A DNA stretch of 64,000 bases, taken from positions 1-64,000 of the forward strand of contig DATIJL010000001.1 of NCBI GenBank assembly GCA_035478595.1, in the 5' to 3' direction. The notes under the pieces were generated by a model. The model ran no database searches and was not told the DNA's origin. It saw only the letters and a list, made by a program, of their open reading frames with translations. The translations under genes and the position numbers were made by a program. Positions 5,769 through 30,283 of this stretch are shown here, piece by piece; position 1 is the stretch's first letter, and every line of letters starts with the position of its first letter. Source of the DNA: Candidatus Chromulinivoraceae bacterium. Its GTDB lineage: Bacteria > Patescibacteriota > Saccharimonadia > Saccharimonadales > Saccharimonadaceae.

Positions 5769-5832
5769 GCCAGGCCGTTCAGGAATCGAGGTTCAACCTC
5801 TTCCTGCGACGCGCCTGGCTTTTCGCTTTTTA
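5769..5832 (+). terminator. Long hairpin terminator after the GC-rich gene
   Basis: GCCAGGC (5769-5775) pairs with GCCTGGC (5813-5819), with inner arms CAGGAA/TTCCTG and GAGGTT/AACCTC. TTTTCGCTTTTT follows. Confidence 0.8.
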
Positions 5833-6426
5833 GGCCCCTTTTTTAAGCTTTTCAATCACTTTGGGTACACGCAAAAAATCATCAATGAGTGTTTGGCGCA
5901 TACCACCATTATAAAGAGCCGCAGCAGGGTGATAGAGGGGCACAATAACTACCTTCTTGTCACCAAACGTTATTCGTTTTGCCTCGCCATGAACTTGACT
6001 AATTTTAGCTTCGGGTAAAAAATATTCCATACTGTGACGACCCAATGTCACAACCACCTTCGGTGAAATGACATCGAGTTGACGCACTAAATACGGCCAG
6101 AAGGCCTTTTTTTCTTCGGGGAGTGGGTCACGGTTGTTCGGTGGACGGTATTTGACGATATTAGTAATGTATACGTCGTTTCGCACCAGTCCAGCTTGTG
6201 CCAGCATTTCGTTTAAAAACTTACCAGCCGCACCGACAAACGGTATTCCCTGCTCGTCCTCGTTTTTACCGGGGGCTTCGCCTATAAAAACAATCTCAGC
6301 GTCCAGATTGCCGTCGCCAATAACCAGCTGCTTAGCGGTCGAGGCAAGGTCAGGACAGACAGCATTCTGCAAAATATCATCACGTATCTGGTCGAGCGCT
6401 CGTTGTTTATCCATTTCATCTTCCAT
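5830..6426 (-). CDS. Family 4-type uracil-DNA glycosylase, cluster cysteines mostly lost
   Basis: The enzyme removes uracil from DNA. The 198-residue protein shows GEAPGKNEDEQGIPFVG (the active-site GEAPG and downstream PFVG), TNIVKYRPPNNRDPLPEE, and the C-terminal YHPAAAL motif. Canonical family 4 enzymes bind a 4Fe-4S cluster through four cysteines, including the C of KCRPP and one about 16 residues later. Here these are Tyr (KYRPP) and Phe/Trp (AFWPYL), and only C24 of the N-terminal pair remains. Either the cluster is gone or the fold is stabilised otherwise. The start ATG at 6426 has no clear Shine-Dalgarno; a second ATG is four codons downstream. Confidence 0.88.
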   Translation of the reverse strand: MEDEMDKQRALDQIRDDILQNAVCPDLASTAKQLVIGDGNLDAEIVFIGEAPGKNEDEQGIPFVGAAGKFLNEMLAQAGLVRNDVYITNIVKYRPPNNRDPLPEEKKAFWPYLVRQLDVISPKVVVTLGRHSMEYFLPEAKISQVHGEAKRITFGDKKVVIVPLYHPAAALYNGGMRQTLIDDFLRVPKVIEKLKKGA

Positions 6427-9068: not shown

Positions 9069-11186
9069 TTATTGAGCGTCTTTAAGACTCAAACTGAGAC
9101 GGCCACGTTCGTCGATACCGGTCAGTTTTACCTTAACCATTTGACCTTCGTGCAGGACATCGGTCACCTGCTCAACACGCTCGTTTGAAAGCTGCGAAAT
9201 ATGAACCATACCATCGATACCGGGCATAATGTTTATGAATGCTCCAAAGTCCTTGATACTAACTACTTTACCGTCGTAGATTTTGCCGACTTCTGGCTCT
9301 TCGGTCAGGCTCTTAATCCAGGCAAGAGCTTTTTCGATCTTGGTTGTGTCTGCAGCAGCAACGGTTATGAGACCGTCGTCCTTGATATCAATTTGGGCAC
9401 CGGTTTCGGCGGTAATTTTATTAATCACCTCACCACCCTTACCAATAACAGCTCCGATCTTATCTGGGTTAATTTTGATTTTCTCAATACGTGGAGCAAA
9501 CGGACTAATGGCAGTACGCGGAGTAGCTAACGTAGAGATCATGTGTTCAAGAATGAACGCACGGCCAGGCTTAGCTTTTTCGAGCGCCTGACGAAGGATA
9601 TCTACTGGCAGGCTGTGGAGTTTCATATCCATCTGCAAGGCTGTGATGCCGTTGGCTGTTCCGGTTACCTTAAAGTCCATATCACCGGCAAAATCTTCGG
9701 CGTCAGCAATATCACTGAGCACGTACGGCGTGTCGCCGTCCATCATCAGGCCCATAGCGATACCACTCACCGGTCGTTTAAGAGGTACGCCAGCATCCAT
9801 AAGTGCAAGACAGCTGCTACATGTTGCAGCCATAGAGGTAGAGCCATTCTGGCTCATGATTTCGGTCACGCTACGAATAGCGTATGGAAATTCCTCTTCG
9901 CTTGGAAGCACTGGAATAAGTGCACGTTCTGCAAGATAGCCGTGACCGATTTCACGGCGACCAGGACTACCAAGACGACGAACTTCGCCTACTGTGTAGC
10001 CGGGCGCGTTGTAATGGTGCATATAGCGACGCTCGTAGTCATTCTGCTCCATCGTATCAACCATTTGTGCATAGCTAAGTGGTGCTAAGGTAACGATGTT
10101 CATGCCTTGAGTGACACCGCGGGTAAAGAGCGATGAGCCATGTGTACGAGGCAAGATACCCACTTCGCTTGAAAGTGTGCGAATTTCGTCGAGTTTACGA
10201 CCATCAGGACGCGTACCATTCGCTACAATGCCCTTGCGGACATCTTTATGAAGAGCCATTGTAAAGGCTTCGTCGTATTCACCGCGAAGTGCCTGGTATT
10301 CGTCTTCACCAACTTTTTTGACCATGTCGTCATGGAACTGAGTGCGAAGCACTGAAATCATTTCGTTGCGTTCTGGGTATGGACGCTGGAGATCTTCACC
10401 AATCTTGCCTTCCATCCACTCGTCAACAACAGTCTGGATGGCGTCGTTTGGAAGCACGAGCTCATAGGTAAGTGGTTCAACTCCGACTTTTTCGATCAAC
10501 TGACGCTGCAACGCGATTGCCGGCTGAAGTTTTTCGTGCGCCCAAGCGATTGCGTCTGTAACAACATCCTCACCTACTTCATTTGCGCCAGCCTCAACCA
10601 TCGTAACGCCTTTTTCGATACCAGCAACCACAAGGTCAAGATCGCTTGCTTCGCGCTCATCACTCGTGGCAAATGCCTTGAACTCGCCATTTACGCGAGC
10701 AACACGCAGGCCAGCTACAGGACCATCAAATGGCGCACCCGTAAGCATAAGAGCTGTGGAAGCGGCGATCATCGCAATAGAATCAGGGCGGAATGCCGGA
10801 TCCATAGAGAGAACACTTGCAACCACTTGGACTTCTTGGCGATACCCTTTTGGAAACAATGGACGAATCGGACGGTCAATTAAACGGCCAATAAGAATGG
10901 CTTCGTCGCTTGGACGGCCCTCACGCTTGATGAAACGGCTGCCACTGATTTTTCCGGCTGCATAAAATTTTTCTTCATAGTCCACGCTCAGTGGGAAGTA
11001 GTCCATGCCGCTAATGGGATTCTTGCCCACCATAGCCGTACCAAGTACAACAGTATCGCCATACTTTACTAGGACACTAGCAGATGTACGAAAACCGACA
11101 CGGTTGACCTCTAGTGTAAGTGGCTGACCGCAGAGATCAGTGGTAACAGAGATAATCTCTTTACCGTTAGGGTTGATAGTAGACAT
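9069..11186 (-). CDS. pnp: Polynucleotide phosphorylase
   Basis: This phosphorolytic 3'-5' exoribonuclease has 705 residues, the normal length. It carries two RNase PH-like domains (about 1-230 and 310-540), a KH domain with IGAVIGKGGEVI (~560-615), and a C-terminal S1 domain with VGKIYDGKVVSIKDFGAFI (~620-700). The start ATG follows GGAGGACATTC. The minus-strand -10 TATAAT at 11311-11316 gives a leader of about 115 nt, a place where pnp autoregulation acts in other bacteria. The leader sequence itself shows no match I recognise. Confidence 0.95.
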   Translation of the reverse strand: MSTINPNGKEIISVTTDLCGQPLTLEVNRVGFRTSASVLVKYGDTVVLGTAMVGKNPISGMDYFPLSVDYEEKFYAAGKISGSRFIKREGRPSDEAILIGRLIDRPIRPLFPKGYRQEVQVVASVLSMDPAFRPDSIAMIAASTALMLTGAPFDGPVAGLRVARVNGEFKAFATSDEREASDLDLVVAGIEKGVTMVEAGANEVGEDVVTDAIAWAHEKLQPAIALQRQLIEKVGVEPLTYELVLPNDAIQTVVDEWMEGKIGEDLQRPYPERNEMISVLRTQFHDDMVKKVGEDEYQALRGEYDEAFTMALHKDVRKGIVANGTRPDGRKLDEIRTLSSEVGILPRTHGSSLFTRGVTQGMNIVTLAPLSYAQMVDTMEQNDYERRYMHHYNAPGYTVGEVRRLGSPGRREIGHGYLAERALIPVLPSEEEFPYAIRSVTEIMSQNGSTSMAATCSSCLALMDAGVPLKRPVSGIAMGLMMDGDTPYVLSDIADAEDFAGDMDFKVTGTANGITALQMDMKLHSLPVDILRQALEKAKPGRAFILEHMISTLATPRTAISPFAPRIEKIKINPDKIGAVIGKGGEVINKITAETGAQIDIKDDGLITVAAADTTKIEKALAWIKSLTEEPEVGKIYDGKVVSIKDFGAFINIMPGIDGMVHISQLSNERVEQVTDVLHEGQMVKVKLTGIDERGRLSLSLKDAQ

Positions 11187-11341
11187 GAATGTCCTCCTTT
11201 TTTAACTCGCCTATTAAAAGATAACGGCGAATAAGTAACGGGTGTGGCATTTCTTTGTTCAAAAAATATCGCATCCACCACTTACGTAACCGCTGCAGCG
11301 AGCTACCTCTATTATAGACTATCTGACCGAATGAATACAGG

Positions 11342-11347
11342 TATAAT
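11342..11347 (+). promoter_or_regulatory. -10 element of the whiB gene
   Basis: TATAAT lies 31 bases before the GTG start. The -35 position (11319-11324, CTATCT) is poor, so the promoter may need an activator or have low basal activity. The pnp -10 is on the other strand at 11311-11316. Confidence 0.55.
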
Positions 11348-11378
11348 AAAATGGTACACACCTAAGGAGGAGATGACC

Positions 11379-11639
11379 GTGGACTGGCGCAAGCGCGCCG
11401 TCTGTCGGGATGAGGACCCTGAGCTTTTCTTTCCAATCGGCAAGAAAGGGCCCGCCGCCAAACAGACGGAAGAAGCCAAAGCAATTTGCCGTCGGTGTCC
11501 CGTCAGCGACCAATGTCTCGAGTGGGCACTCACAAGCGGCGAAGATACGGGTGTCTGGGGAGGACTGAGCGAAGACGAACGACGAGCATTGAAAAGCCGA
11601 AGAGCTAAGGCAAAGCGTCGCCAGAAGCCCCGTTCCTAA
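11379..11639 (+). CDS. whiB: WhiB1-type iron-sulfur transcription regulator
   Basis: WhiB-like proteins carry a 4Fe-4S cluster, bind region 4 of the primary sigma factor, and respond to NO/O2. They are typical of Actinobacteria and their phages. The 86-residue product has the four cluster cysteines at C9, C37, C40 and C46 (CRRCPVSDQC), DEDPELFFPIG near the N-terminus, the sigma-contact turn GVWGG with W60, and a basic DNA-binding C-terminus (KSRRAKAKRRQKPR). From memory, spacing and wording follow mycobacterial WhiB1 almost residue for residue. I chose GTG 11379, eight bases after AAGGAGG, because it gives MDWR at the N-terminus as in WhiB1; an ATG at 11373 is too close to the ribosome site. 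Codons are GC-rich, unlike the neighbours. It stands alone. Confidence 0.93.
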   Translation: MDWRKRAVCRDEDPELFFPIGKKGPAAKQTEEAKAICRRCPVSDQCLEWALTSGEDTGVWGGLSEDERRALKSRRAKAKRRQKPRS

Positions 11640-11649
11640 CGTACAACGG

Positions 11650-11681
11650 TCTGAGCCCCACCGCAAAGGGACTCGTTTTTT
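11650..11681 (+). terminator. Probable terminator of whiB
   Basis: GAG-C-CCC pairs with GGG-A-CTC and is followed by G and six T. The stem is short. Confidence 0.5.
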
Positions 11682-17853: not shown

Positions 17854-19463
17854 GTAACTGCTCACTGCCCCAACTGCGCCAACGCCTTGAAATAGCCTTG
17901 GGGTGCTGTGCGCCACGTAGTGGTGCACAGCGAAAGGACGGTGGCTAGTGCTTGCGCTCCTCGCTCAGACTTAGAGCCAAAGCTCCGCTTTCGCTTTAGT
18001 ACCAGCTGTCGTAAATCCCGTTCAGTTCGGTTGTTGTCACACGGTGTATCTTTTAGGAGACAGACGAATAGTCTGTCTTTCCCAGCTCTTTTGAGCTGGG
18101 CTTTCAGCCTCGTGAGTTTCTGTGGTTCACCAGCTCCCTCCGGTGCTGGTTGGTTGGCCAGTCGCTGTACTCGCTGCCAGAGTGTTTCGGCTTGCTGTTC
18201 TCGTACGACTTCGTCGTACGGTTCGTTGAGATACGTTCGTAGGTCTTGGTAGATACCAGCGAAGCTGGCATACCACAGCTCAACATACGGAAGCTGTTCT
18301 TCCGGAAGATGGGCATTGTAGCGGAGATCACGAATAGTCCTGTAGAGATGTGCCCAGCAGAGCTGCTGAGTCCCGGGGAGTGACTCGCTGCGGTACGCAG
18401 CGTAGTCGTCCGTAATACGGACGCCAGCAAAGGGCTGGTCGCTGTCCTCTCCGAATAGTGTGTGAGCATACGTCGCTCCGCGACTTTGCTCCAGGGCAAA
18501 GTAGACCTTTGCGCTCGTCCCGTCACAGAGATTCCATGCATAGCCATGACCCTGCTGGTCTTGGATTGGCCAGGGTGTTTCGTCGGCATGCACCACTGGT
18601 GCGGCTCGGATGTCGCTCTTCAGCTGAGTGTACGCCGGTAGCCAGGTTTGGTGTTGTTTCTGGAGGATATGAGCAATCTCACCGTCGGTGACGGTGAGAT
18701 TGTAGAGCGAAAGGAGCAGGCCGGTTGTTTGAGCGTAGCTCAACCCAACCACCGAAATGAGATGACAGACCAGAAGACGAGTATTGGAGCCAAGCGTCAC
18801 CGCCTGACCGCTGAGATCTTTATTCCCTCCGGTTGCGGCTCTGCCGCAGGCGAGGCATTCGCCTCGCTCAATGAGATACTTTGTCACTAACTGTGGTTGG
18901 TAGTCACGGGTCAGCTCGGGGAGCGGGATATCCTCTTCGTAGCGTTCGTGGATGGTCGTCTTGTTTGGATTGAAATGACCACCACAAGCGCAGGTGGCAG
19001 GAAGTGGCAGTGCCACTTCCTGCGTTACAGCGCTTGCTGGCGGCAATGGCCGCCGGTAGGAATCCTTGCTGCGAGGCTGCTTCGGTAGCGCAAAGAGAGT
19101 GGGAGTTACAGCGGGCGTTCCGCCCGCTGGTGGCCGTTTCTTCTTGCCGAAGACCATGGTTTGGAGTTCGGCTATTTGGATAGCCTGAGCGTCAATCTTC
19201 TCGAGGGCTTGAGCAAGCAGCTGACGCAGCTCAACATTCTCCGCTCGGATTACTTTGTTCTCAGCTTTGAGCTCAGCGATCTGACGCCGGTCACGAACAT
19301 GCAGCTTCCGCAGGTTGCGGAGCTCTACCATGCGCGAAGCGATAACGTCATCTGTGAGTTTTCGAGACATACGTGTGTTACAAGCTTTGTTTGTTTTTTA
19401 GTTCGTCCTAAACTAAAGTTTAGTCCGAACTGCCCTGAGGGGCAAGGGGGTGTGAGCAGTTAC
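17854..19463 (-). mobile_element. IS66-family insertion sequence, single-gene type
   Basis: The 1610-bp element is bounded by inverted repeats GTAACTGCTCAC (17854-17865) and GTGAGCAGTTAC (19452-19463) and an 8-bp direct target duplication. It has one gene, tnpC-like; tnpA and tnpB are absent, as in the ISBst12-type subgroup. Perfect duplication and an intact transposase indicate recent insertion. It landed just upstream of the promoter of the GC-rich gene at 19550. Confidence 0.92.
17862..19370 (-). CDS. tnpC: IS66 family transposase (TnpC-like)
   Basis: The 502-residue transposase has an N-terminal coiled coil with a leucine-zipper-like region (about 1-75), a linker, a zinc-binding segment (CACGGHFNP ... 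CLACG), and the catalytic core with VVHADETPW and ITDDYAAYRS. Near the C-terminus the IS66 segment CDNNRTERDLRQLVLKRK is present. The stop codon lies inside the left inverted repeat. Its length is full for the family, so it is probably active. Confidence 0.95.
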   Translation of the reverse strand: MSRKLTDDVIASRMVELRNLRKLHVRDRRQIAELKAENKVIRAENVELRQLLAQALEKIDAQAIQIAELQTMVFGKKKRPPAGGTPAVTPTLFALPKQPRSKDSYRRPLPPASAVTQEVALPLPATCACGGHFNPNKTTIHERYEEDIPLPELTRDYQPQLVTKYLIERGECLACGRAATGGNKDLSGQAVTLGSNTRLLVCHLISVVGLSYAQTTGLLLSLYNLTVTDGEIAHILQKQHQTWLPAYTQLKSDIRAAPVVHADETPWPIQDQQGHGYAWNLCDGTSAKVYFALEQSRGATYAHTLFGEDSDQPFAGVRITDDYAAYRSESLPGTQQLCWAHLYRTIRDLRYNAHLPEEQLPYVELWYASFAGIYQDLRTYLNEPYDEVVREQQAETLWQRVQRLANQPAPEGAGEPQKLTRLKAQLKRAGKDRLFVCLLKDTPCDNNRTERDLRQLVLKRKRSFGSKSERGAQALATVLSLCTTTWRTAPQGYFKALAQLGQ

Positions 19464-29272: not shown

Positions 29273-30283
29273 TTAACTCAGGTATTCGTGCAACTTCTTG
29301 GCATCTTTGTGCTTACGAAGCTTGGCGAGCGCCTTAGCTTCAATTTGACGAATACGCTCACGAGTAACCGCGAACTCCTGCCCTACTTCTTCTAGCGTGT
29401 GGCTTTTACCGTTTTCAAGACCAAAGCGCATCTTAACGATTTTTTGTTCACGCTCTGAAAGAGTTGAAAGTACTGCTTGAACCTGCTCCTTCAAGAGTTG
29501 ACTAGTTGCAGACTCTTCTGGTGTTGCACCATCTTCATCTTCAATAAAGTCACCCAAGACACTGTCTTCGTCTTCGCCATCTCGCCCAACACCAGCATCG
29601 AGGCTAGTAATATCTTGCTTGATTTTGATGACATACTCTACTTTTTCAGGCTCCATCTCAAGCTCTTTTGCTAGCTCTTCGATAGTTGGCTCGCGGTTGA
29701 GCTCTTGAGTCATACGACGCTGCGTGCGGAGCAGCTTATTGATCGTCTCTACCATGTGTACTGGAATACGAATAGTACGCGCTTGATCGGCAATAGCACG
29801 AGTAATCGCCTGACGGATCCACCAGGTAGCATAGGTGCTAAACTTGAATCCCTTGTCCGGGTCGAATTTTTCGACGGCGCGAAGGAGACCGGTGTTACCC
29901 TCTTGAATCAAATCAAGAAAATCAAGACCACGGCCACTATAGCGCTTGGCAATGGACACTACTAGACGCATGTTAGCCTCAGCCATTTTATCCTTTGCAC
30001 GCTTGTCACCGGCAACCACTTTTTTTGCCAATGCCAGTTCTTCTTCTGCAGAAAGTAGAGGAATTTTACCAATTTCACGGAGGTAAAGTCGTACGCTGTC
30101 ATCACTGACGTCGTCGAAGTACTCGCCGCTGTTTAGCGTATCGATATCATCTTCTTCTTCATCTACCAGTTCATCAATGGCCGGTTCATCTAGATCACCG
30201 AGCGGACCGCCGCTGGCATCAACAACCTGGTCGTCATCCTCTTCATCAACAATTGGCTTCGTTACATCGCTATCTTTGACCAC
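29273..30283 (-). CDS. rpoD: Primary RNA polymerase sigma factor
   Basis: The 336-residue sigma-70 factor has an acidic N-terminus instead of a full region 1.1, region 1.2 ([18 protein letters not shown]), region 2 ([33 protein letters not shown]), region 3, and region 4 with [18 protein letters not shown]. The canonical C-terminal HPSRS-type segment after KLR is replaced by [13 protein letters not shown]. It is the second gene of the dnaG-rpoD operon and overlaps dnaG by 14 bases; rpsU is missing from this classical operon. Confidence 0.96.

Follow-up and report, generated by a model that had tools for sequence, protein, structure and literature searches.

A WhiB1-type regulator gene of actinobacterial ancestry beside pnp in a Patescibacteria-like genome

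The Wbl family of regulators has been called exclusive to Actinobacteria in reviews (PMC6282962, PMC10245118), and our search of the open-access literature turned up no paper that connects WhiB, in a relevant sense, to Saccharibacteria, Patescibacteria, the candidate phyla radiation or TM7. The stretch of 64,000 nucleotides analyzed here (the window) nevertheless contains a whiB-like open reading frame, located on an 80.6-kb contig of a genome of 1.14 Mb that is 99.5% complete. Its size and gene content agree with the label 'Saccharibacteria-like' of the original prediction. This raises the question of how the gene came to be there, and in which cell its product acts.

The reading frame has a GTG start codon and a Shine-Dalgarno sequence (AAGGAGG at 11364-11370) 8 nt upstream. 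Its product matches the Pfam WhiB model PF02467 over its full length (1-65 of 65; E 1.4e-28, 99.7 bits, curated cut-off 23.6) and none of the models of NCBIfam. All four cysteines (C9, C37, C40, and C46, in the arrangement C-Xn-CX2CX5C) are present, as are the sigma-facing residues W3, F17, F18, and W60, the stretches DEDPELFFPIG and GVWGG, and the basic tail. The closest relatives of solved structure are the Mtb WhiB1 entries 5oay (E 3e-37) and 6ono (7e-36), with the structures of Streptomyces WhiB, WhiB3, WhiB4, and WhiB7 ranking well behind. In a reduced tree the protein falls inside the WhiB1 clade and not that of WhiB2, with 100/100 support. The WhiB1-type layout of the original prediction is thus borne out by residues, domain model, structures and tree, and by its sequence the protein is a member of the Wbl family (PF02467) of the WhiB1/WblE type (class I). 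As predicted for this family, it may bind an O2- and NO-sensitive [4Fe-4S] cluster.

Table 1. Features of the whiB locus and of the genes discussed with it (window positions unless a contig is named).
Feature	Coordinates	Strand	Basis or remark
whiB, WhiB1/WblE-type (class I Wbl)	11379..11639	+	86 aa; PF02467, WhiB1 structures, WhiB1 clade
Putative whiB promoter, CTGACC-18-TAAAAT, or TATAAT at 11342-11347, plus Shine-Dalgarno	11323..11378	+	consensus scan, sequence
Weak hairpin and T-run 3' of whiB, possible terminator	11653..11680	+	-8.4 kcal/mol
pnp (polynucleotide phosphorylase), divergent neighbor marking the insertion slot	9069..11186	-	TIGR03591, E 1e-266
Family-4 uracil-DNA glycosylase	5830..6426	-	TIGR00758 over cut-off
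rpoD, own primary sigma	29273..30283	-	region 4 end: Mtb SigA H516 and P517 are K and H
Radical-SAM/SPASM protein, the genome's only radical-SAM match	G000:C11:38186-38647 (L421)		CX3CX2C intact

With WhiB1, WblE, and WhcE of Actinobacteria (5oay, 6ono) the protein shares its length, the four cysteines, W3, F17/F18, GVWGG and the basic tail. It differs from them in its setting: its gene neighbors pnp on a chromosome from a different phylum, neither SUFBD nor NifU_N was detected in the genome, and the primary sigma factor lacks H516 and P517. This last difference belongs to the partner and not to WhiB; it lowers the claim that the protein works exactly like WhiB1, not its WhiB1-class membership.

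In base composition the gene stands out, with a GC content of 59.3% compared to 46.5 ± 2.9% for the genes of the window; only 0.6% of 86-codon segments are equally GC-rich. The foreign codon use that had been noted before holds for base composition, but codon usage itself is only mildly unusual (lowest 4.4%). The gene had also been credited with its own promoter and its own terminator. Upstream, a plausible though putative promoter-like site matches 9 of 12 consensus positions (in shuffles, a mean of 0.6 for the region). The claim of a terminator is weak: the downstream hairpin was not called by the terminator scan and folds no better than shuffles (z 0.49).

The high GC content (59%) and the patchy distribution described below would fit an assembly chimera, a concern raised with the original prediction, or a recent insertion without function. 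However, two genomes of other genera of the same family (G004 and G013) also have a whiB gene in this position, in divergent orientation to pnp, on contigs with pnp genes that share 84-86% identity with the window copy. The whiB is WhiB1-like in G004 and WhiB3-like in G013. A relative without a WhiB match (G029) has pnp, the FBP_C gene, a greA-like gene, NUDIX, rpsO, galM, and truB in the same order, and its site is empty: pnp and the gene beside it are not separated by a whiB. The slot common to other genera and the empty site rule out an assembly artefact. As many WhiBs of the class also lie beside rpoD or polA and their cysteine ligands are invariant, we regard chimerism or a functionless insertion as extremely improbable.

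With respect to ancestry, the best 80 genome loci listed for the window WhiB are all from Actinobacteria, the closest being that of Modestobacter (79-81% over 72 aa). WhiBs of GenBank phages reach up to 57%, and those on IMG/VR contigs up to 72%. From these similarities a chromosomal donor looks closer than the known phages, though the tree does not pin the donor down. A phage origin was not supported: no phage genes were seen beside the locus, and in the tree viral and chromosomal WhiBs are interspersed. Of the proposal that the gene was taken from an actinobacterial host or phage, the actinobacterial ancestry was confirmed by the 80 best loci and the WhiB1 clade, but the phage source was not. 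The WhiBs of actinobacteriophages (e.g., TM4) are nevertheless a parallel, as Wbl genes acquired horizontally outside the actinobacterial chromosome, with repeated acquisitions as in the class studied here (PMC8612146). In contrast to these, the window gene is on no recognizable phage and is nearer to chromosomal WhiB1 than to the WhiBs of GenBank phages.

A single transfer, as first envisaged, is too narrow a description: the pattern is one of class-wide, patchy and repeated acquisition of several Wbl types. The WhiBs of the class resemble WhiB1, WhiB2, and WhiB3, as assigned from solved relatives and the tree, and WblA, as assigned from a reading of the sequence, and this presence of several types within one class points to repeated acquisition. 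In a tree of 140 rows, built on a short domain and with many forks unresolved, about 20 changes of the class label are required, and 5 are forced by well-supported branches alone. One class-wide origin of the WhiB1-like genes was rejected (five as one clade, p-AU 0.009), while a single origin of the window and G004 WhiBs was not (p-AU 0.39), the groups for these AU tests having been named after the first tree was seen. The other Wbls of the class (WhiB2-, WhiB3-, and WblA-like) have the domain, the ligands, the genome class and the same or neighboring slots in common with the window WhiB; they differ in Wbl subfamily, and several carry long N-terminal fusions without a Pfam match.

Taking class and phylum as the kinship levels of the genome search, we found PF02467 in 40 of 101 near relatives, in 109 of 393 genomes of the class (77 of 153 genera) and in 18 of 380 genomes of the phylum, all 18 of them within the class. 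Outside the class, but in the same phylum, WhiB was found in none of approximately 343 genomes (a number inferred from listing order), and among 14 control genomes only Corynebacterium gave a match. Some WhiB-bearing bins with the gene on small contigs (e.g., G120 and G414) could reflect contamination, but WhiBs beside rpoD, polA or pnp are not easily explained in this way. The cysteine ligands are kept in all 69 WhiB domains of the class (C9 in 68), W60 in 65 of the 69, and an aromatic residue at F17 in 64. Such wide and repeated presence in one Patescibacteria-like class breaks the Actinobacteria-only rule. Known members of this class live on Actinobacteria; if the class is Saccharimonadia, the WhiB-bearing class is also the group living on Actinobacteria.

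The genomic setting of these genes bears on their use. Of 16 WhiB-positive genomes with both genes mapped, 8 have WhiB no more than approximately 5 kb from rpoD, and a common gene order is rpoD, kinase-like gene, whiB, polA. Among the neighbors of 66 WhiB loci, polA occurs at 15 and pnp at 3; in the window, the slot of the rpoD/polA type, 13-18 kb from whiB, is occupied by a polyprenyl synthetase. In two genomes (G046 and G398), an additional sigma-70 gene lies close to whiB (L218:7972-9291 and L221:5984-6907), which suggests regulatory use in the own cell. A full-length WhiB with all ligands, its recurrence in the class, the conserved residues and the proximity to rpoD and polA together support the reading that we favor, at about even confidence: an acquired regulator of the cell's own transcription, acting via altered docking or in a cluster-poor state. 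It is weakened by the lack of a SUFBD or NifU_N match, by an own sigma factor without H516 and by neighboring extra sigmas without RHPS.

Further sigma-like genes were observed near rpoD in G004, G027, G344, and G075. Several WhiB2-like proteins have N-terminal extensions of up to approximately 300 aa, and the partner gene upstream of them matches no Pfam model. In L217:7957-9078, L224:9107-9910, L229:8740-9750, and L225:6088-8970, the WhiB domain is joined to an N-terminal region of 200-300 aa or heads a 960-aa protein; these fusions have no other Pfam match, and several overlap with an upstream gene of no known family.

On the sigma side, region 4 reads LRKHKD, LRKHRE or LRKNKD in the RpoDs of the class that were aligned (G102 could not be read in the same way), in WhiB-positive and WhiB-negative genomes alike, at the position where actinobacterial and other bacterial sigma factors of solved structure have LRHPSR. 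The extra sigmas of G046 and G398 also lack the RHPS motif. Among 30 genomes outside the class, the HP motif is kept in place in roughly a third. In Mtb, changing SigA H516 to Ala abolishes binding of WhiB3 (PMC10245118) and R515H abolishes that of WhiB7 (PMC3905903); WhiB1 may tolerate R515H (PMC6282962, a review). Loss of RHPS as an adaptation to WhiB was rejected, as genomes of the class without WhiB have lost the motif too, and so have many genomes outside it. That the sigma-facing residues are kept on the WhiB side, though the partner sigma has changed, is a puzzle for the mechanism.

A second puzzle concerns the cluster, whose ligands are kept in WhiB although the usual assembly genes were not found in the carriers we searched. 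The search for assembly genes covered two models, SUFBD_core and NifU_N (NifU/IscU). Neither model was matched in the window genome or in any of the 12 WhiB-positive genomes tested, and none of the 109 WhiB carriers of the class has a SUFBD (SufB/D) match over the cut-off (G206 has a fragmentary match below it). A SUFBD match is present in 58 WhiB-negative genomes of the class. We considered a mutual exclusion of WhiB and SUF, with zero overlap (Fisher 1.5e-9 by genome), and did not retain it: SUF is confined to five genera, so that the genus-level p is only 0.028, and the exclusion may stem from shared ancestry.

A further reading is a cluster-free role in the own cell, with zinc bound to the four cysteines or with cycling of these between dithiol and disulfide; the protein would bind DNA or handle disulfides without docking on sigma. 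The carriers without SUF/IscU matches are consistent with it, as is the DNA binding of Mtb apo-WhiB1 (PMC6282962). The family-4 uracil-DNA glycosylase of the cell has likewise dropped cluster ligands, three of the four cysteines that hold the [4Fe-4S] cluster in its relatives being lost (alignment to 4zbx and 1l9g), a loss common to G004, G013, and G029. However, the protein retains W60 and F17/F18, residues that serve sigma docking and the cluster pocket. In addition, although radical-SAM matches are missing from 8 of the 12 WhiB-positive genomes tested, the one in the window genome has its motif intact, suggesting that some cluster supply may exist. We consider a cluster-free role quite improbable.

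Both puzzles would be explained if WhiB were directed at the host. The protein would then move into the actinobacterial host, obtain its [4Fe-4S] cluster from the host SUF system, dock on host SigA (RHPS) and alter host transcription; phage WhiBs are thought to do likewise. There is a precedent in phage TM4, whose WhiB represses host whiB2 (PMC8612146). That the ligands and sigma-facing aromatics persist in cells where SUF and IscU were not detected and the sigma has changed argues for such a role, as do the patchy and repeated acquisition of several Wbl types and, within the phylum, the confinement of WhiB to the one class with known members living on Actinobacteria. The hypothetical idea of a host mimic gains indirect support from the lack of Fe-S assembly genes among those searched and of the sigma contact. 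Against it, many Patescibacteria that carry no WhiB have lost RHPS as well, so that the sigma change is not a WhiB adaptation, and some WhiBs lie beside sigma genes; we regard host-directed action as a serious rival, though somewhat unlikely. A broader proposal, that the class repeatedly takes actinobacterial Wbl genes for use on the host and that these WhiBs gain function only on reaching the cytosol of the host and capturing its SigA there, we judge unlikely. With ligands kept without SUF/IscU and sigma-facing residues kept opposite a changed sigma, the question of host influence becomes a simple one of binding, to region 4 of the own RpoD or to that of host SigA, and with it whether epibionts influence or follow their hosts.

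For the favored reading, a regulator of the cell's own transcription, we envisage the following. A WhiB1/WblE gene of actinobacterial origin would have been inserted singly beside pnp and then kept under constraint. The Wbl core would dock on the sigma/beta-tip region of RNA polymerase through the kept aromatics, with a sigma contact altered by the lack of His516 in the own sigma. The protein would alternate between two states, one bound to the cluster (or otherwise held by metal or a disulfide) and the other an apo form that binds DNA at promoters such as that of whiB itself, divergent from pnp. Action inside the own cell, sigma docking, cluster making and targets are here what we infer.

Two further features were observed around pnp. 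Its leader forms two successive hairpins in the window (11187-11285, minus strand) and at two other loci (L228 8316-8415 and L232 5070-5170), with z-scores of -1.1, -1.4, and -3.9, respectively. The lower stem (TAAGTGGTGG / CCCGTTACTTA) is conserved in the three genera and the sequence of the upper stem varies; the hairpins are likely a cis-regulatory RNA of pnp. Finally, an IS66-family transposase (17862-19370, minus strand), for which the best model match is just below its cut-off, lies in a region of raised GC content, flanked by the pnp-rpsO-truB genes on one side and rpsT on the other.
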